NCBI GenBank assembly: GCA_014534095.1
Contig: JACVSD010000057.1
Location: 1 to 11,491, forward strand
Length of the DNA stretch: 11,491 nucleotides
DNA from: Nitrospiraceae bacterium
GTDB lineage: Bacteria > Nitrospirota > Nitrospiria > Nitrospirales > Nitrospiraceae
Direction: 5' to 3'
Each line of letters opens with the position of its first letter. The stretch's first letter is position 1. The position numbers and the translations under genes are program-made. Below are positions 692 to 10,409 of the stretch, piece after piece. Under the pieces are notes generated by a model. That model was not told the DNA's origin. It was given only the letters and a program-made list of their open reading frames with translations, and ran no database searches.

Positions 692-709
692 AGAGCAAGC
701 TCGCTGCCA
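692..709 (-). promoter_or_regulatory. Sigma54 (RpoN) -24/-12 promoter of nxrA
   Basis: The minus strand reads TGGCAGC-GAGC-TTGCT. The -24 GG (707-708) and the -12 GC (695-696) are separated by exactly 10 nt, as sigma54 requires. The consensus is TGGCACG-N4-TTGC[A/T]; the only departures are the last two bases of the -24 block. The expected transcript start is near 683, giving a leader of about 122 nt before the nxrA ATG. The next two regulators encoded upstream both carry the GAFTGA sigma54-contact loop, which raises the prior for a functional site. No equally good sigma70 promoter was noticed between here and nxrA. Confidence 0.75.
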
Positions 710-2609: not shown

Positions 2610-4625
2610 CTATTCGAACCACGGCAACGTAAATCGTACGGTGCAGCCTTCTTCGTCTTCGCCCTCGATCCAGATCTCTCCTCCATACAACTCCACGATC
2701 CGTTGCACGATCGTCAAGCCGATCCCGCTACCCGGCACGTCGGCCGAACCAAGCCGCACGAACGGCTGAAACACGCGCATACGATGCGGCTCCGGTATGC
2801 CGATGCCGTTGTCTTGAACCGAGAAACAGGCCATGCGTTCCCGCCGCTGGGCACTAATTCGAATCCGGACCGGCCTCTTGGGCGAGGCATATTTGAGCGC
2901 GTTCGAGACCACGTTGTCGAAGATCTGACGCAGATAGGCGGCATGGCATGCCACCAACGGCAAGTCGGGCTCTACAGTAATGCGGCCCTGCTGCCGTTCA
3001 AGCTCGGTGGCCCGTTCCTTCACCACCTCGCCAAGCACCAGGGCAGGATCCACGGCGGTGACCGGTCCGGCTCCCGCCCCGACATGGGCGACAGCCAAGA
3101 TGCCCTCCACCCTCTCCACCAACTCACAGCCGTTTTCCCGGAGGAGCCGCAGCCAGCGATCCACGCGCTCGTCTAATCGACCATGACATTCACGATGGAT
3201 TAACGCCGTCAGTTCCGCCATGCGCTGTCCGGGTCCCTTCAGATCATGGGCCAATGCGGCGGCGAGATGCTCGAGATGACGGAGCCTCGCCGCGAGTCCT
3301 TGTTGCCGCTCTTGCACCGCTTCATACAGGCGCGCGTTTGAAATCGCGACAGCCGCCTGCTGGGCCAATCCGACGGCCAGGCGGCTGTTCCAATGTTCCG
3401 GCTCACGACGATGCCGGCTGACGACAACCAGCACCCCAAACGGCCGGCCTTGGCTCAACAGCGGCACCGACATCATGCTGCTTCCCAACAGGTTTCGACG
3501 CATCACCTCGGGCCCGCAGTCGCGATGCAGGTTGACCCCGTAGGCAACCTGGCGGGTGTCGTAGGCCTGAACCGACACGGGGAACTGTTCCCACAGCATG
3601 ACCGCCTTATACAGTCCCTCGTTCCATGACCCAGACGCCGCTTCGACCACCCAGCAGCCCATCTTGTCATTGCGCAGCATGACGAGGCTCACATCGGCAT
3701 CCGCTAACTCAGCCGCATGATTTGTAATCCGCCGGAGAACCCCGTCCAATCCATCCGGGGCGATCGTGTTGATGTCCTCGCCGATCCCCTCCAATGTTTC
3801 CAGCTCTTTGATTTGCGTGCTGATGCGGACCGCCATCTCATCATAGGCGCGCGCAAGCGCTCCGAGTTCGTCTGTCGCCATGCCGGCCGGCGGCAGGATC
3901 GAGCGAAAACGCGCCGGATCAATTTGTCTGCCGAAGTCGGTGGCGGCTGCCTGCAGCCCTGTGATCCGATCCGTGATCGACCGTGTCAGCAGGCGAGAGC
4001 CGACGAGGCTTAACAGGATAAAGACTGCAAAGGCGCACCAGAGTTCCACAAAGGTCCCCGAAGAGAGCCGCTCGGCCTGCGTATTGAGCGACCGGCGCAC
4101 CACATCCAGGCGGTCCTCAATGCTCCGCAGTTCCTTTCGGAGCCCGTCTGACAGCACATGTCCGTGAGCGGCATTGAGACGTGATAACACGGCGCCATGG
4201 CCGGCGGAGCGCACCAGGTCAATCAACTCCCGCATGGACGTCAAGACCGTCTTCAAGCGTGGGACCAGCGGATAGAGCTCCACGGCGGCGGTTGTACGGC
4301 TGATCTCTTCGGACAAAATATCCCGCAAGACGCCGTCCAGTTCGGATTCCGCTCGCTCGAGTGCGGGTAAGTATTCCTGGTCCTGCGTCAAGACGTAGCC
4401 GTGTAGGGCATCCTCACCGTCGATCGCCAGACGATGAATGACATGGATATACTCACGCGCTTGAAGGACGGATTGGCGCTCCTTTTGGATGGCCAGCAAT
4501 TGACTCGTGACATAGAAATGGACGGCGAGTGATAGCAGGAGAGGGATGAGCAGGAGACTGAGGACGGCCCAGACTTTATGCTGGACGGTCCTCTGTTGCC
4601 ACCATGTCCGGACCGATGACCCCAT
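2610..4625 (-). CDS. Membrane sensor histidine kinase HK1 (CHASE3-HAMP-GAF-HisKA-HATPase)
   Basis: This 671-residue kinase probably phosphorylates RR1, encoded immediately downstream. In order, it has a transmembrane helix (about 18-39), an extracytoplasmic CHASE3-like segment (about 40-190, with HGYVLTQDQEYL typical of the family), a second helix (about 193-213), a HAMP linker (about 214-268), a GAF-type sensory domain (about 290-433), phosphoacceptor H460 in AHDLKGPG, and an ATPase domain. The ATPase has an N-box around N575, DNGIGI (from 605) and GSGIGL (632-637). All catalytic boxes look intact. The ligand of the CHASE3 and GAF regions cannot be read from sequence. I chose the ATG at 4623-4625, with GAGG eight bases upstream. 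A TTG at 4676 would extend the frame across a perfect hairpin in the gap and is unlikely. The gene follows RR2 by 100 bp and is probably in the same transcript. Confidence 0.93.
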   Translation of the reverse strand: MGSSVRTWWQQRTVQHKVWAVLSLLLIPLLLSLAVHFYVTSQLLAIQKERQSVLQAREYIHVIHRLAIDGEDALHGYVLTQDQEYLPALERAESELDGVLRDILSEEISRTTAAVELYPLVPRLKTVLTSMRELIDLVRSAGHGAVLSRLNAAHGHVLSDGLRKELRSIEDRLDVVRRSLNTQAERLSSGTFVELWCAFAVFILLSLVGSRLLTRSITDRITGLQAAATDFGRQIDPARFRSILPPAGMATDELGALARAYDEMAVRISTQIKELETLEGIGEDINTIAPDGLDGVLRRITNHAAELADADVSLVMLRNDKMGCWVVEAASGSWNEGLYKAVMLWEQFPVSVQAYDTRQVAYGVNLHRDCGPEVMRRNLLGSSMMSVPLLSQGRPFGVLVVVSRHRREPEHWNSRLAVGLAQQAAVAISNARLYEAVQERQQGLAARLRHLEHLAAALAHDLKGPGQRMAELTALIHRECHGRLDERVDRWLRLLRENGCELVERVEGILAVAHVGAGAGPVTAVDPALVLGEVVKERATELERQQGRITVEPDLPLVACHAAYLRQIFDNVVSNALKYASPKRPVRIRISAQRRERMACFSVQDNGIGIPEPHRMRVFQPFVRLGSADVPGSGIGLTIVQRIVELYGGEIWIEGEDEEGCTVRFTLPWFE

Positions 4626-4673
4626 GGTGATCGCCTCGCTGCGGGCTACTATGAAGGCGTTCACGCGGACATG

Positions 4674-4700
4674 CAAGAGCCTCTGGCGCTACGGCTCTTG
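4674..4700 (-). other. Intercistronic stem-loop between RR2 and HK1
   Basis: CAAGAGCC (4674-4681) and GGCTCTTG (4693-4700) form a perfect 8-bp inverted repeat with an 11-nt loop, in the 100-bp gap between the RR2 stop and the HK1 start. No T-run follows, so it is not a canonical terminator. It may stabilise or process the polycistronic mRNA, or partly terminate it between the two kinase/regulator pairs. Confidence 0.45.
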
Positions 4701-4725: not shown

Positions 4726-6117
4726 TTATTCGTCGTCTTCGACCTTTTTCAGACGCCGGTCCAGCGCGAAGCGGGTCAACCCAAGGTGCTTCGCCGCCAA
4801 GGTTTTATTGTAGTTTGCCAACCGCACCACTTCATCGATGATGGCCCGCTCGATGTCGGCGAGGGTCTGGTGTCCGAGCTTCATTTCCACCCGGACCATC
4901 GGCTCGGTGCCGGAGGCCGTCGCTACGGCGACCTCCGCGGTCCGCTCGCGCAATTCGCTCGGCAAACATGTCGGAGTGAGCGTCCGGCCTTGGCAGAAAA
5001 TCATCGCGCGTTCGAGAATGTTCTGCAGTTCGCGAATATTCCCGGGATAGGGATACTGCTCAAGCATGACCTGCGCCTCCGCGTCCAAATCGGGTACGGG
5101 CTTGCCGAACTCCTGCGCAAACCGCACAATCGCCCGCCGACACAAGGGAAGAATGTCCTCCACCCGTTTGCGAAGCGGCGGCAGCTCAAACGCCACCACG
5201 TGAAGACGGAAGTACAAATCTTCCCGGAACGTCCCGCGAGCGACTTCTTTCTTGAGATCGCGATTCGTGGCTGTGACGAGACGGAAATCCACGCCGATAT
5301 CGTCGGTTCCGCCCAGCCGCCGGAAGGATCGCTCCTGGATCACCCGCAACAGCTTGGCCTGCATCGGTTGGTCGAGGTCACCGATTTCATCGAGGAACAG
5401 GGTTCCGCCCTCGGCTTTTTCCAGCAGGCCGTACTTACGCTGCGTGGCGCCGGTAAAGGCGCCCCGCTCATACCCGAAGAGCTCGCTCTCGAACAGGTCG
5501 CGGGGAATCGCCGTGCAGTTGACTCCGATGAACGGCCCGGTGGCCCGCGGTCCGTTGTGATGGATCACCCGCGCGAAAAATTCCTTCCCGGTACCCGTTT
5601 CTCCCAGGAGCATCACGGAACTTTTCGGATTGTCCGCCACCTCACGGACCTGTTCGAGCAACTGCTTCATCACGTGACTGTGCGCTTCCAAATTGCTGAA
5701 ATGATATTGGCTGCCCAGTTCATCATGTTCCGACTCGAGACGGCGGCGAAGCGTCAGCACATCCAGGGCACGGGCGATCACAGGATCGATACCCTCAAGA
5801 TCCACTGATTTGATAAGGAAGTCGTAGGCCCCCAGCTTCATCGCTTCCACGGCGTCCTGCACAGTGCCGTACGCCGTCAACATGATCACCATGGCGGCAG
5901 GGGCCAGCTGACGGACCTGCTTCAGCGTGTCGATGCCCCCGAGCCCCGGCATTTTCACATCGAGCAGAATCACGTCGGGCAAATCGTGCTGCAGCGACTC
6001 CAGGAGGGCTTCCCCGGATTCATAGGCCACCACGCGATGGCCTTGCCGGCCCAGCCGTTTGACAATGGCGGCCCGAATCGCCTGTTCGTCATCCGTCACA
6101 AACACCACAGCGCGCAT
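4726..6117 (-). CDS. Sigma54-dependent response regulator RR2 (receiver, AAA+, Fis-type HTH)
   Basis: This 463-residue NtrC/AtoC-type activator has a receiver (about 3-120) with D9/D10, phosphoacceptor D53 and T81. K103 is followed by Ser instead of the nearly invariant Pro. The AAA+ domain (about 140-375) has Walker A GETGTGKE (172-179), GAFTGA (219-224) and Walker B FLDE (241-244). The C-terminus (about 420-463) is a Fis-type helix-turn-helix for DNA binding. The ATG at 6115-6117 has AAGGGA six bases upstream and starts only 3 bp after the HK2 stop, so the two are co-translated and almost certainly a cognate pair. Like RR1 it could drive sigma54 promoters such as the one before nxrA. Which regulator does so cannot be decided from sequence. 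Confidence 0.95.
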   Translation of the reverse strand: MRAVVFVTDDEQAIRAAIVKRLGRQGHRVVAYESGEALLESLQHDLPDVILLDVKMPGLGGIDTLKQVRQLAPAAMVIMLTAYGTVQDAVEAMKLGAYDFLIKSVDLEGIDPVIARALDVLTLRRRLESEHDELGSQYHFSNLEAHSHVMKQLLEQVREVADNPKSSVMLLGETGTGKEFFARVIHHNGPRATGPFIGVNCTAIPRDLFESELFGYERGAFTGATQRKYGLLEKAEGGTLFLDEIGDLDQPMQAKLLRVIQERSFRRLGGTDDIGVDFRLVTATNRDLKKEVARGTFREDLYFRLHVVAFELPPLRKRVEDILPLCRRAIVRFAQEFGKPVPDLDAEAQVMLEQYPYPGNIRELQNILERAMIFCQGRTLTPTCLPSELRERTAEVAVATASGTEPMVRVEMKLGHQTLADIERAIIDEVVRLANYNKTLAAKHLGLTRFALDRRLKKVEDDE

Positions 6118-6120
6118 CAG

Positions 6121-8049
6121 CTATCCCTTTCCGACCGGTATGTCCTGACTTAACGGCATCCAAATCCTCACGTTCGTTCCCGCGCCGAGCTCGCTGACCA
6201 TATGCATTTCCCCCCCATGCGTTTCAACGATGTTGCGGCAAATGGCCAGACCGAGACCGGTCCCATGCCGCTTACCGCTGGTAAAAAACGGCTTAAAGAC
6301 CTGGGACAGCGCCTCGGGAGCAATGCCGATGCCGGCATCCCGGATACTCCACACGATGCCCGGCCGGTCTTGGCGAGGGAGTTCTCCGACGGTGATCTCG
6401 ATCGCCGCGCCACCCGCCGGTGAGGCGTCAATGGCATTATGCAGGACATTTAAGAGGACCTGCTTCATCTGGTCGCGGTCGGCATGCAGGCGGGGCAGTG
6501 CGGGAGCGAACGAAGTTCGCACGACGAGCTGCTTTTCCTTGAGCGGCACATCGAGCAATTTAACCGCCTCCTCGATGAGATCCGACACCGCGAACTGCAT
6601 GGGGGCGAGTTCCCGGGGCCGTGCGTACTCGACGATCTGGTTCACAATCCGATCCAGGCGCCGCGTTTCCTTTAAGATGACCTCGACTTCGGCCCGTCTG
6701 GGATCGGCGTCCTTGAACTCATCCCGCAAGAGAGACGCCGTTGAGCCGATTCCGACGAGCGGATTGCGGATTTCATGGGCAATCCCGGCCGCCACCTGTC
6801 CGAGCGTGGCCAGCTGCTCGGCGCGGCTCAGCCGTGTCTGGAGGTCGTCCAGCTTCGTGATGTCGATGTTGAATCCGACATAGATCGGTTCAGGTCCGTC
6901 CGCATTGGCAATGGGCAGGCGGCGACTCAGGATTGTCCGAACGCCGCCGTCCTTATGCACGAACCGAAACACTGCTTCGTAAGGTCTGGCGGCCGCGACG
7001 GCTTGCGTGAACCCCGACAGCACCCGCTCCCGGTCTTCCGGGTGAATCTGCCGGCGAAAGGTCGACGGGTCGGCCTCTTCGTCGGGATTCAGGCCGGCCA
7101 AGACCTGGTTATACCGGTTGCTGAACGTGACGTGCGTGCCTTTGGTCGTAAAGATGCCAAATGGCGCATGATCCACGAGCCCGCGATACTTCGATTCAGA
7201 ATTCAGTAAGTGCTCATTCAGTTGGAGAAGGGCGGCCTCGGATTTTTCCATTTGGTCCAGGTGCCCGCGAATCTGTCCGCTCATCTCATGCATCACACGG
7301 CTGAGATCTCCTATTTCGTCCTTTCGCTCGAACACCGGAATGAACGGCACCACGCCGCCCGGGGGCGACGCCACGGCGTTGGCCAACCGGGCCAACGGTT
7401 TCGCAATGGACCGGGCGATCAAATACAATGCGGCCACCGTCAGGCCCAGGGTCAGCACGCCTCCGCCCAGGATGATGAACAGGAGCGACGTCCGGTCCTG
7501 GCTGATTTTGCCGAGTTCTTCCATCGCGCCTTGCTGCTCGAGCTGGTCGAACTGTGTCATGAGGTTCCGGATCTCGAGCATCAGGGCGCGCCCGCGGCCT
7601 TCCTCGACATACTCCAACGCCCGCTGCCTATGGCCGCCCTTAACCGCTTCGATCAAGTCTTCTTTCTCGGTAATGAGCTGTGTCACGAGCGTTTGAATGA
7701 CCCGAAAATGTTTGGCTTGTTCCCCGACAATGCGCTGTTCCAAGTCCTGGCCGATCGCCCTGATCCCCTCTTGCGCCACCCGATACGGCCGAAGATAGCG
7801 ATCCTGATTCGTCATCACATATCCGCGAAAGCCTGTTTCAAGATCCACGACCAACCGCATATATTGGGCGGCCTCTTTTTGCGTCACGTACAGATTGTTC
7901 AGATGCTCCTCGTCCAACGAGAACAATTCCACACTCTGGAGAGTGACCAAACTCAGTAGGACCAGCGCGGTCAGGGGAATGGCGGACGCGAGCAACAGCT
8001 TCCGATGTATCGGAAGATGATTGAAAAGACGGGCCACCGACTTTCGCAC
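6121..8049 (-). CDS. Membrane sensor histidine kinase HK2 (CHASE3-HAMP-PAS-HisKA-HATPase)
   Basis: This 642-residue kinase is the likely partner of RR2, 3 bp downstream. It has a transmembrane helix (about 18-40), a CHASE3-like extracytoplasmic region (about 43-183, with FRGYVMTNQDRYL), a second helix (about 188-211) and a HAMP linker (about 212-265). A PAS/PAC sensory domain (about 283-398) is followed by HisKA with H425 in AHEIRNPL. The HATPase has N-box N534/N538, DAGIGI (from 571) and GTGLGL (596-601). The H-box and ATPase resemble the NtrB/ZraS type that partners sigma54 activators. I chose the GTG at 8047-8049 because GGAAGGA lies six bases upstream and a good sigma70-type promoter lies just before it. 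The frame can be extended to a GTG at 8145, but that start has no ribosome binding site and lies upstream of the promoter. What the PAS and CHASE3 domains sense is unknown. Confidence 0.92.
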   Translation of the reverse strand: MRKSVARLFNHLPIHRKLLLASAIPLTALVLLSLVTLQSVELFSLDEEHLNNLYVTQKEAAQYMRLVVDLETGFRGYVMTNQDRYLRPYRVAQEGIRAIGQDLEQRIVGEQAKHFRVIQTLVTQLITEKEDLIEAVKGGHRQRALEYVEEGRGRALMLEIRNLMTQFDQLEQQGAMEELGKISQDRTSLLFIILGGGVLTLGLTVAALYLIARSIAKPLARLANAVASPPGGVVPFIPVFERKDEIGDLSRVMHEMSGQIRGHLDQMEKSEAALLQLNEHLLNSESKYRGLVDHAPFGIFTTKGTHVTFSNRYNQVLAGLNPDEEADPSTFRRQIHPEDRERVLSGFTQAVAAARPYEAVFRFVHKDGGVRTILSRRLPIANADGPEPIYVGFNIDITKLDDLQTRLSRAEQLATLGQVAAGIAHEIRNPLVGIGSTASLLRDEFKDADPRRAEVEVILKETRRLDRIVNQIVEYARPRELAPMQFAVSDLIEEAVKLLDVPLKEKQLVVRTSFAPALPRLHADRDQMKQVLLNVLHNAIDASPAGGAAIEITVGELPRQDRPGIVWSIRDAGIGIAPEALSQVFKPFFTSGKRHGTGLGLAICRNIVETHGGEMHMVSELGAGTNVRIWMPLSQDIPVGKG

Positions 8050-8075
8050 AGCAGGTCCTTCCGTGATGCTTCGAT

Positions 8076-8105
8076 ATGGTAGGAGTGAGATCTCGGCGCT
8101 GTCAA
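8076..8105 (-). promoter_or_regulatory. Sigma70-type promoter for the HK2-RR2-HK1-RR1 operon
   Basis: On the minus strand, TTGACA (8100-8105, a perfect -35) is separated by 18 nt from TACCAT (8076-8081, 4 of 6 matches to the -10). Transcription would start near 8069, leaving a leader of about 20 nt that contains the HK2 ribosome binding site GGAAGGA. The fit with the GTG start at 8049 supports both calls. Confidence 0.55.
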
Positions 8106-8162
8106 ACTCGCTGCCCGGGAGCATGACCATGTTTTCGAGGGGCACCGTGCGGCCGCCGGCAC

Positions 8163-8203: not shown

Positions 8204-9724
8204 ATGAAGAGACGGCCGCACAAAGAAGGGGCCTTGGCCGGCATGCTGGTCCTCCTGGCGGCAGGCACATTTGTTCTCGACGTCCTCACGCCGCTGAGCT
8301 TCGCCGTCCACGTGCTCTACGCGGCCGTCGTCTTGCTCGCTACCATATCCCGCTTGTCGTGGATACCTCTCGTGACGGCCGGCGTCAGCGCGATCCTCAC
8401 CATCACCGCCGGGTTCTTCAGCCCACCCCTGCCCGGAGTGCCTCAATGGATCCCGATCGGGAACCGGCTGCTCACCATGATCATGCTCTTTATACTGGGA
8501 TGGTTTTCACTGAAGCGGCGGGAGGCCGAAACGGCCCTGCAGGAGGCGAACGAGGGGCTGGAGGCGAAGGTCAAGGAGCGGACGCAGGAACTCGCGGGGG
8601 TCAATCAGGCCTTGGTCTCGGAGGTGACCGAGCGTATGCAAGCCGAGCACGCCTTTCGACTTTCTGAAGGGCGGCTCGCCGGGATTCTCGACCTTGCGGA
8701 AGATGCCATTATCGTCATCGATCAGGACCGGGCGATCGGGTTGTTCAATCAAGGCGCCGTGAAGCTGTTCGGCTATGAGCCGCATGAAATCCTCGGTGCG
8801 CCGATCGACCGCTTGCTGACCGAACCTCTGCATCTTGATCAAGCCCCTTCCGCCGGTCTCCCCACTCCGATAGCCCAGCCGGGACGCCGCCTGGCCCATC
8901 CCCGTGATGTGTTGGCCGTGCGAAGCGACGGAACGGCATTCCCGGCCGAGGCCAGCGTCAGCAAGCTGACGGTCGGCCACAAAACGACCTGGACAATCAT
9001 CTTGCGCGATTTGACCGACCGTTTACGCGCTGAGCAGCAACTGCACTCTCTAACGACGCAGCTGATGAACGCCCAGGAAGAAGAACGACGGCGCATCTCT
9101 CGCGAGCTCCATGACGACATCAATCAACGGCTGGCGCTGGTGGCCATTGAAATCGGTAGCCTGGAAGCCCACCCTCCCACCTCGGCCGAGGCGATTCGTG
9201 GCGCCTTTCAATCGTTAACCCAGCGGCTAGCGTCGATTTCGGATGACGTGCGCCGCATGGCCTATCAATTCCATCCGTCCGTGCTGGACGATCTCGGGCT
9301 ATCGGCCGCCCTTGAGTATCTGACGAATGACTTCTCGGACAAGACCGGCATCAAGATCATTCTCGTGCAGGAAGAGTTTGTGGATCCGTTGCCGAAAGAG
9401 ATTGCATCATGCCTTTATCGCATTACCCAAGAAAGCTTGGCGAACGTGACGAAGCACGCCAAGGCTTCACGGGTAGAACTGGAATTGACGTGCGACGGCC
9501 AAGAGATTACCTTGTCCATACGGGACAGCGGCGTCGGGTTCGATCTCGACCGCGTGCGGGCGCACCACCGAGGCCTGGGGCTCGTCAATATGCGGGAACG
9601 CGTCCGATCGATCCAGGGCCGCTTTGAGATTCAATCGCAAGCGGGTGAAGGCACCCATATTACGGTAACTATTCCATTACCAGGAGCGCCTCATGAGCAT
9701 CCCGCGAGTTCTGTTAGCCGATGA
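8204..9724 (+). CDS. Membrane sensor histidine kinase HK3, NarX/DegS type (HisKA_3)
   Basis: This 506-residue kinase starts with about four hydrophobic segments (roughly 13-29, 33-49, 54-72 and 87-103) with short loops, so it is an integral-membrane sensor without a large periplasmic domain. A coiled coil follows (about 105-150), then a PAS domain (about 155-270). The HisKA_3 dimerisation domain has phosphoacceptor H303 in SRELHDDINQRL. The ATPase has N414, DSGVGF (441-446) and GLGL (457-460). This architecture is that of kinases that phosphorylate NarL/FixJ regulators, and such a regulator overlaps its 3' end by 32 nt. NarX's nitrate-binding P-box region is absent, so sensing of nitrate or nitrite is not shown. 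The ATG at 8204 lacks a Shine-Dalgarno. The alternative ATG at 8243 has a purine-rich run about 11 bases away but would shorten the first hydrophobic segment. Confidence 0.93.
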   Translation: MKRRPHKEGALAGMLVLLAAGTFVLDVLTPLSFAVHVLYAAVVLLATISRLSWIPLVTAGVSAILTITAGFFSPPLPGVPQWIPIGNRLLTMIMLFILGWFSLKRREAETALQEANEGLEAKVKERTQELAGVNQALVSEVTERMQAEHAFRLSEGRLAGILDLAEDAIIVIDQDRAIGLFNQGAVKLFGYEPHEILGAPIDRLLTEPLHLDQAPSAGLPTPIAQPGRRLAHPRDVLAVRSDGTAFPAEASVSKLTVGHKTTWTIILRDLTDRLRAEQQLHSLTTQLMNAQEEERRRISRELHDDINQRLALVAIEIGSLEAHPPTSAEAIRGAFQSLTQRLASISDDVRRMAYQFHPSVLDDLGLSAALEYLTNDFSDKTGIKIILVQEEFVDPLPKEIASCLYRITQESLANVTKHAKASRVELELTCDGQEITLSIRDSGVGFDLDRVRAHHRGLGLVNMRERVRSIQGRFEIQSQAGEGTHITVTIPLPGAPHEHPASSVSR

Positions 9725-10337
9725 CCATACCCTCGTGCTGGAGGGGTTCCGTCGACTGCTGGAAGAGCATTGTGAATTGCTCGGGACGGCGGAAGACGGT
9801 CGGGCCCTGATTCAAGCCGCCGAACGCCTGCAACCCGACTTGGTCCTTCTCGATATTTCCATGCCGCGGCTGAACGGCATTGATGCCGCGAGGATGCTCA
9901 AGAGACAGCATCCTGAGCTGAAGCTCATTTTTGTCACCATGCATGCCGATCCGTCTTACGTGAATGAGGCCTTTAAAGCGGGCGCCTCCGGGTACTTGCT
10001 CAAACGATCGGCCGCACAGGAGCTGATCCAGGCGATCCAGGCCGTCATGAAAGGCGACTATTACGTGACCCCGCTGATTACCAAAGACGTCATTAGCGCC
10101 TTCCTCACCACGGGCCGCCCGCGCATACCTGCCGCGGACGACTTGACGTCGCGGCAACGTGAAATCCTACAATTAGTGGCCGAAGGTTTCTCCGCCAAGG
10201 AGATCGCCGGCCAGCTGAATCTCTCGCACCGCACGATCGAGTTCCACAAAGCGAAGATCATGGAAGTGCTGGACCTCCATACCACCGCCGATCTCGTTAA
10301 ATACGCCGTCGCCCACGGGTTAGTGGCGGCATCATGA
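9693..10337 (+). CDS. NarL/FixJ-family response regulator
   Basis: This 214-residue transcription factor has a receiver (about 4-120) with D10/D11, phosphoacceptor D54, T82 and K104, and a LuxR-type helix-turn-helix (about 151-205, LTSRQREILQLVAEG...). Phosphorylation by HK3 would be expected to promote dimerisation and DNA binding. The ATG is preceded by AGGAG six bases upstream and lies 32 nt inside the HK3 3' end, indicating translational coupling and a cognate pair. All receiver residues are present. The target genes are unknown. A role in the nearby nxrA region or the following receivers is only suggested by position. Confidence 0.94.
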   Translation: MSIPRVLLADDHTLVLEGFRRLLEEHCELLGTAEDGRALIQAAERLQPDLVLLDISMPRLNGIDAARMLKRQHPELKLIFVTMHADPSYVNEAFKAGASGYLLKRSAAQELIQAIQAVMKGDYYVTPLITKDVISAFLTTGRPRIPAADDLTSRQREILQLVAEGFSAKEIAGQLNLSHRTIEFHKAKIMEVLDLHTTADLVKYAVAHGLVAAS

Positions 10338-10356: not shown

Positions 10357-10409
10357 CTCCCGTAGTTGTCCTGAAGGAAACTGGTAGGATCCACCAGATC
10401 CTCCCGTAG
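10357..10409. repeat. Short direct repeat CTCCCGTAG x2 in the gap before the receiver gene
   Basis: CTCCCGTAG occurs at 10357-10365 and again at 10401-10409, 44 bp apart. Similarity extends a few bases to the left (CTGGAT-A versus CCAGAT-C). The pair lies in the 145-bp gap between the NarL-type regulator and the next gene, where operator sites would be expected. Nothing else is recognised in this gap, and no good promoter was found. Confidence 0.3.

Follow-up and report, generated by a model that had tools for sequence, protein, structure and literature searches.

Nitrospira keep several near-identical copies of nxr, the genes of nitrite oxidoreductase. In the locus described here, an 11,491-nucleotide stretch of a Nitrospiraceae genome (contig JACVSD010000057.1; hereafter the window), an initial annotation had placed a sigma54 motif with GG-N10-GC spacing upstream of nxrA, expected a transcript start near 683, and proposed that two sigma54 activators encoded just upstream control the gene. 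Our comparison of upstream regions suggests that most nxrA copies are expressed from a promoter that requires an activator, and that each kind has its own recognisable docking sites for one.

The 5' end of nxrA falls in the window (Table 1); the encoded fragment is 97% identical to N. moscoviensis NxrA and has a TAT signal above the cut-off and a Molybdop_Fe4S4 match just below it (22.6 against 22.7). Upstream on the minus strand lie RR1, HK1, RR2 and HK2, in that order, and a NarX/LuxR-type pair sits at the far end of the window, not adjoining nxrA. The GAFTGA loop ascribed to both upstream regulators could be read in RR1 and RR2, each of which has a receiver and an AAA+ domain. The Fis-type helix-turn-helix of RR1 (HTH_8) scores 19.4 bits, below the Pfam cut-off of 22, and this region is conserved among RR1 orthologs. 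HK1, the presumed partner of RR1, is kept adjoining it at the loci of relatives.

Table 1. Features of the window, including predicted sites (A1, nxrA copies preceded by an RR1 ortholog)
Feature	Position	Strand	Basis or remark
nxrA, first 187 codons	1–561	−	ATG at 561; runs off the window
Ribosome site GGAGG	570–574	−	8 bases 5' of the nxrA ATG; GGAGG conserved in A1 alignment
Predicted transcription start	683	−	placed from C695 taken as −12
Predicted sigma54 −24/−12 promoter TGGCAGCGAGCTTGCT	694–709	−	GG-N10-GC; consensus and approximate weight matrix; conserved in relatives
IHF-like site TTACAAGCACTTA	748–760	−	2 mismatches to WATCAANNNNTTR; between enhancers and promoter
Putative inner enhancer palindrome GCATACCGCTATATTC	829–844	−	alignment with A1 relatives; held-out loci
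Putative outer enhancer palindrome GAATACAAAGATATGC	896–911	−	alignment with A1 relatives; held-out loci
Degenerate core box GCTTCCAATCCGTAAC	978–993	−	2 mismatches to GTTAC-N6-GTAAC
Degenerate core box GTCGCGTTCCCGTAAC	1042–1057	−	2 mismatches to GTTAC-N6-GTAAC
RR1, NtrC-type sigma54 activator	1060–2520	−	
HK1, CHASE3-GAF histidine kinase	2610–4676	−	
RR2, NtrC-type activator	4726–6117	−	receiver, AAA+ and HTH all over Pfam cut-off; GAFTGA read in sequence
HK2, CHASE3-HAMP-PAS histidine kinase	6121–8145	−	

The promoter motif was confirmed with its GG-N10-GC spacing at 709–694, the originally noted 692–709 including two flanking bases, and the start that it predicts agrees with the one expected. 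Against the two forms of the sigma54 consensus, TGGCAC-N5-TTGCW and TGGCAYG-N4-TTGCW, TGGCAGCGAGCTTGCT has one and two mismatches, respectively. Matches with up to three mismatches number 22 in the window, compared with 28.8 expected from shuffles, and 5 of the 22 have two. With an approximate weight matrix the motif scores 12.8 of a maximum of 19.3. Among 2000 dinucleotide shuffles of the 498-bp intergenic region, 18 attain this value on the sense strand and 26 on either strand; a stronger match (14.3) lies at 1484, within RR1 coding sequence. A search of 540–1100 for sigma70-like sites gave none, shuffles averaging 0.4. Taken alone the window motif is weak, suggestive evidence; it is comparison that makes it convincing.

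For this comparison, a contig scan with the 187-residue start of NxrA confirmed 222 relatives, from which 78 loci were kept, giving 79 regions with the window. Among the 75 with at least 250 bases upstream, 46 have a sense-strand site of at least 9.5 bits within 300 bp; no region has one on the reverse strand, and 4.2% of shuffles reach this score. The set was then enlarged from the N. moscoviensis genus group: of 79 genomes searched, 60 contained a total of 85 nxrA copies, and upstream regions were fetched for most of those not already in the set. The resulting 160 regions were reduced to 109 by removing 6 with fewer than 250 bases and 45 near-duplicates (at least 97% over the last 230 bp), and were sorted according to what is encoded no more than 900 bp 5' of nxrA: an RR1 ortholog (A1, 8 regions), an RR1 cousin (A2, 4), a LuxR-type regulator (B, 15), another sigma54 activator (D, 3) or none of these (C, 79).

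A strict motif, scored when the best site fits [TAC]GG-N8-TTG[CT], is present in A1 8/8, A2 4/4 (all with GT at −12), C 70/79 and D 1/3, leaving 9/79 class C regions without it, and is absent from class B (0/15). Sites of at least 9.5 bits occur in 8/8, 3/4, 57/79 and 3/3 of the same four classes and in 0/15 of class B, with 1/109 on the reverse strand; in class D, both sites outside the strict pattern score 15.2, having GTGC in place of TTGC. Fisher's test for the strict motif (82/91 in A1, A2 and C together against 0/15 in B) gives p = 2e-12, computed without kinship correction, and as the upstream regions are related such p values overstate their independence. TGGCA-N6-TTGCT is invariant across nine aligned A1 loci, and an alignment of 14 hand-picked class C sequences has no invariant run 5' of the ribosome-site region other than TGG-N8-TTGC. 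The proposal of sigma54 control of nxrA thus gains support from sequence comparison well beyond the window, a check for loss of the GG and GC elements in orthologous upstream regions having found them kept across those 82 regions; class B copies are an exception.

The interval from RR1 to nxrA contains two palindromes of the form GMATA-N6-TATKC, which are 67 bp apart; the promoter is 135 bp from the inner of the two. This rule was derived from three loci, the window, L002 and L007, all with a spacing of 67 bp and an inner distance of 135–136; the inner palindrome of L002 has one mismatch. Searching the 79 genomes for RR1, which matches at E 1e-100 in ten of them, supplied the held-out loci L080, L081 (where only the first nxrA codons are on the contig stretch) and L083–L086; L079 repeats L007, and L082 repeats L002. 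All six held-out loci (five non-redundant ones, L084 and L085 being near-identical) have perfect copies of both palindromes at a spacing of 66–67 and an inner distance of 134–135, together with the promoter TGGCA[AG]-N5-TTGCT. Unlike this fixed geometry, the distance from promoter to ATG varies from 139 to 188. Across the 79 genomes the strict pair pattern matches six times, once at each held-out locus, and its reversed control does not match at all; with up to one mismatch allowed, the pair occurs in 8/8 A1 and 0/101 other regions. The 4.6-Mb genome of N. moscoviensis has six single palindromes, and their sole close pair is the one at nxrA. RR1 therefore emerges as the most likely activator of sigma54 polymerase at the window nxrA, judged from site and regulator sequences, and to this extent the suggested role of the upstream regulators is supported. 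It does not extend to RR2, for which we found no site at, or link to, the window nxrA promoter. The HK2–RR2 pair (4726–8145, minus strand) also occurs near nxr in L077 (RR2 87%), a class A2 copy, and in L062 (RR2 73%), a class B copy without a sigma54 motif.

RR1 cousins with a different recognition helix accompany a different palindrome, helix and site type changing together. Whereas the C-terminal end of RR1 orthologs reads KAA..SGIPRQHFSLLMKRFL, that of the cousins reads.AA.EAG[LV]PR.YFHEIMRRY, and the cousin loci (L013, L091, L092, L077 and L087/L088, the last two outside the 109-region set) carry TGTCA-N8-TGACA. At up to one mismatch this palindrome is found in A2 4/4, A1 1/8, B 2/15, C 0/79 and D 0/3. 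Two mismatches proved too permissive for a class marker (A1 4/8, B 6/15, C 21/79, D 0/3). The rule having been made on the same loci, a genome scan is its sole independent test: in N. moscoviensis it gave two perfect matches, each no more than 370 bp 5' of an nxrA copy, and the reversed control also gave 2 reported matches per strand.

Copies with no regulator gene beside them have a third palindrome, GTTAC-N6-GTAAC (the core box), about 240 bp before the promoter. It is perfect in 25/73 class C regions, whereas in 20 mononucleotide shuffles no dyad, whatever its sequence, exceeded 3. At up to one mismatch the core box is found in 62/73, or 62/79 counted over all of class C, against 0–2 in shuffles. 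N. moscoviensis has one perfect core box, at nxrA_1, and its control also has 1. Core box and sigma54 motif together match 23 times in 21/79 genomes, a count that is weak alone (reversed control, 15); what counts is the location of 21 of the 23 at nxrA, 19 at surveyed copies and two where a contig end truncates the start of nxrA. The remaining two belong to one orthologous locus, present in two genomes, before a 416-codon open stretch (L182 680–932, reverse-complement, G065:C1:2315069-2315321; L185 636–888). A1 regions retain core boxes at up to two mismatches in 8/8 at the outer place and 5/8 at the inner, and at up to one mismatch in 2/8.

As activator of these unlinked copies the best candidate is an NtrC-type regulator encoded with a kinase at 3425257–3429881 in N. 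moscoviensis, a few kb from ethylbenzene-dehydrogenase-family and nitrate-reductase-delta-family genes that we take as nxrC_2 and a TorD-like chaperone; its pairing with GTTAC-N6-GTAAC is conjectural. This nxrC-side regulator (L199:15258-16706, minus strand) has a single ortholog in 71/79 genomes, 79–91% identical in rows outside G001. The excerpt of PMC12342949 that we consulted mentions a two-component system in the nxrC diagnostic cluster. The NifA-like regulator of N. moscoviensis was also considered and was rejected as a universal core activator: 70/79 genomes match it at E 1e-100, and among the matches listed 20 genomes (18 full-length, 2 partial) reach at least 63% identity, the rest being other activators. 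Around nxrC, a search of 80 kb gave a single core box, at 1 mismatch, and next to it no sigma54 motif fitting the pattern used.

In class B, the genes directly 5' of nxrA encode a NarX-like kinase and a LuxR-type regulator. Between the LuxR gene and nxrA, GTAG repeats in a triple 22 bp apart are present in 13/15 class B regions and 0/94 others, and are likely, from this distribution, to be binding sites of the LuxR-type regulator. The arrangement shares its kinase and LuxR-type regulator with two-component control of the NarXL/NreBC kind, and here it goes with the absence of the sigma54 motif (15/15) and with GTAG repeats instead in 13/15. The window has GTAG repeats of its own at 10362, 10384 and 10406 (10362–10409, plus strand), exactly 22 bp apart and just 3' of its LuxR-type gene (9693–10337).

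An IHF site is common, though not required, at sigma54 promoters. The IHF-like site is weak in the window and recurs at offset −51 in six other listed A1 rows, including the duplicate L082. The IHF consensus WATCAANNNNTTR is matched with up to one mismatch 35–58 bp before the promoter in 32/53 loci, whereas the other strand has it in 3/53 and shuffles in 10.5%, and perfectly in 5/53 against 0.7% of shuffles; two mismatches, the level of the window, are uninformative (46/53; other strand 42/53; shuffles 57.9%). Four HU/IHF-family genes are present in N. moscoviensis, and the RpoN DNA-binding domain was found in 72/76 related genomes, a set that lies outside the window's own genome.

The promoter motif, the palindrome pair, their fixed geometry and conservation, and the matching of regulator type to site type are computed results. 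From them we consider it very likely that window nxrA is transcribed from the sigma54 promoter at 709–694 and activated by RR1 at the two palindromes. We infer that RpoN polymerase would wait there in a closed state; phosphorylated RR1 would bind at 911–896 and 844–829, the DNA would loop, perhaps bent by an IHF-like protein at 760–748, and the RR1 ATPase would open the promoter, with HK1 supplying the signal. NtrC-activated promoters of the glnA/nifH type have in common with this scheme the −24/−12 element, a GAFTGA AAA+ activator, two dyad sites 130–200 bp upstream and, should the weak window site prove genuine, an IHF-like site in between. They differ in that the target here is an energy-conserving nitrite oxidoreductase, and in that the palindromes GMATA-N6-TATKC, TGTCA-N8-TGACA and GTTAC-N6-GTAAC were derived here from sequence.

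A sigma54 promoter could also answer to another activator, either RR2 or the regulator of GTTAC-N6-GTAAC, with RR1 acting elsewhere. RR2 is NtrC-type and encoded nearby, and the degenerate boxes at 993–978 and 1057–1042 have counterparts within two mismatches in every A1 region; yet few of these reach one mismatch, the palindrome pair tracks RR1 orthologs and is missing at 0–1 mismatch from all other regions, and HK2–RR2 also accompanies the motif-less class B copy in L062, all of which makes a different activator unlikely.

The motif itself might be a chance match, with nxrA using a housekeeping or unrecognised promoter. Against its conserved position in 82/91 A1, A2 and C regions, the single reverse-strand site at 9.5 bits among 109, and its invariance in the nine aligned A1 loci, the points that speak for chance (a score reached by 0.9% of shuffles, loose matches no commoner than expected, and class B copies without the motif) leave this explanation very improbable. 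Its letters might also be conserved as an inverted repeat forming an RNA or DNA hairpin, for GGCAGC (678–683) and GCTGCC (703–708) are visible in the window and overlap the −24 element; but the remaining A1 loci have not kept the second arm, whereas TGGCA-N6-TTGCT never varies among them, and we give this idea next to no credence. Activation of a sigma54 promoter by RR1 remains our preferred reading.

A broader proposal is more tentative, and we hold it to be possible without quite favouring it: sigma54 may gate nitrite oxidation in Nitrospira by means of an enhancer code. In this scheme the core copy would answer to a near-universal activator at GTTAC-N6-GTAAC, and extra copies to their own two-component systems, namely RR1 at GMATA-N6-TATKC, its cousin at TGTCA-N8-TGACA and, without sigma54, NarX/LuxR at GTAG. 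If so, each nxr paralog would be a version of the same enzyme tied to a particular signal, and the core boxes lingering beside RR1 sites mean that two activators may meet at one promoter. The central energy enzyme of Nitrospira would join the sigma54 regulon, and with a named promoter and site for each copy class, and a named regulator for two, the conditions that select a copy would become testable.

Published expression values fit activator dependence without proving it. In a steady nitrite-fed reactor, the N. moscoviensis copies gave RPKM of 13,027 (nxrA_5), 486 (nxrA_1), 179 (nxrA_2) and 19 (nxrA_3), against a genome median of 97.6 (PMC6606698, Table 2, in the excerpt consulted). From tag numbers and coordinate order, we take nxrA_3 for the copy at 3812697, which is of class A1, and nxrA_5 for that at 4285814, of class A2. 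The A1-type copy would then be nearly off, as expected of a promoter silent without its activator, and at 19 RPKM the window-type promoter may serve a conditional paralog; the most transcribed copy would be driven by an A2 promoter.

Sigma54-dependent regulators adjoining N. moscoviensis nxrAB have already been published (PMC6606698). The excerpt of that paper proposes that nxr paralogs differ in how they are regulated, with reference to Lucker 2010, Koch 2015 and Ushiki 2018, and leaves the roles of the copies to future expression studies. It treats the same genes as we do, with no promoter or enhancer sites and no genus-wide comparison in that excerpt, and the word "promoter" is absent from its main text. 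The other literature searched, which included excerpts of PMC5767232, PMC12342949 and PMC13049253 but not Lucker 2010 or Koch 2015, likewise yielded no nxr promoter or enhancer sites. According to the excerpt of PMC6606698, the top nxrAB copy is preceded by the NifA-like regulator and followed by NITMOv2_4539. In the coordinates used here, where the tags of the 4.27–4.29 Mb regulators are our provisional assignment, the nxrA copies of that region (L013, L101 and L102) are on the minus strand, an NtrC-type gene (4286247–4287647) lies directly 5' of nxrA, and the NifA-like gene (4271451–4273124) lies 3'.
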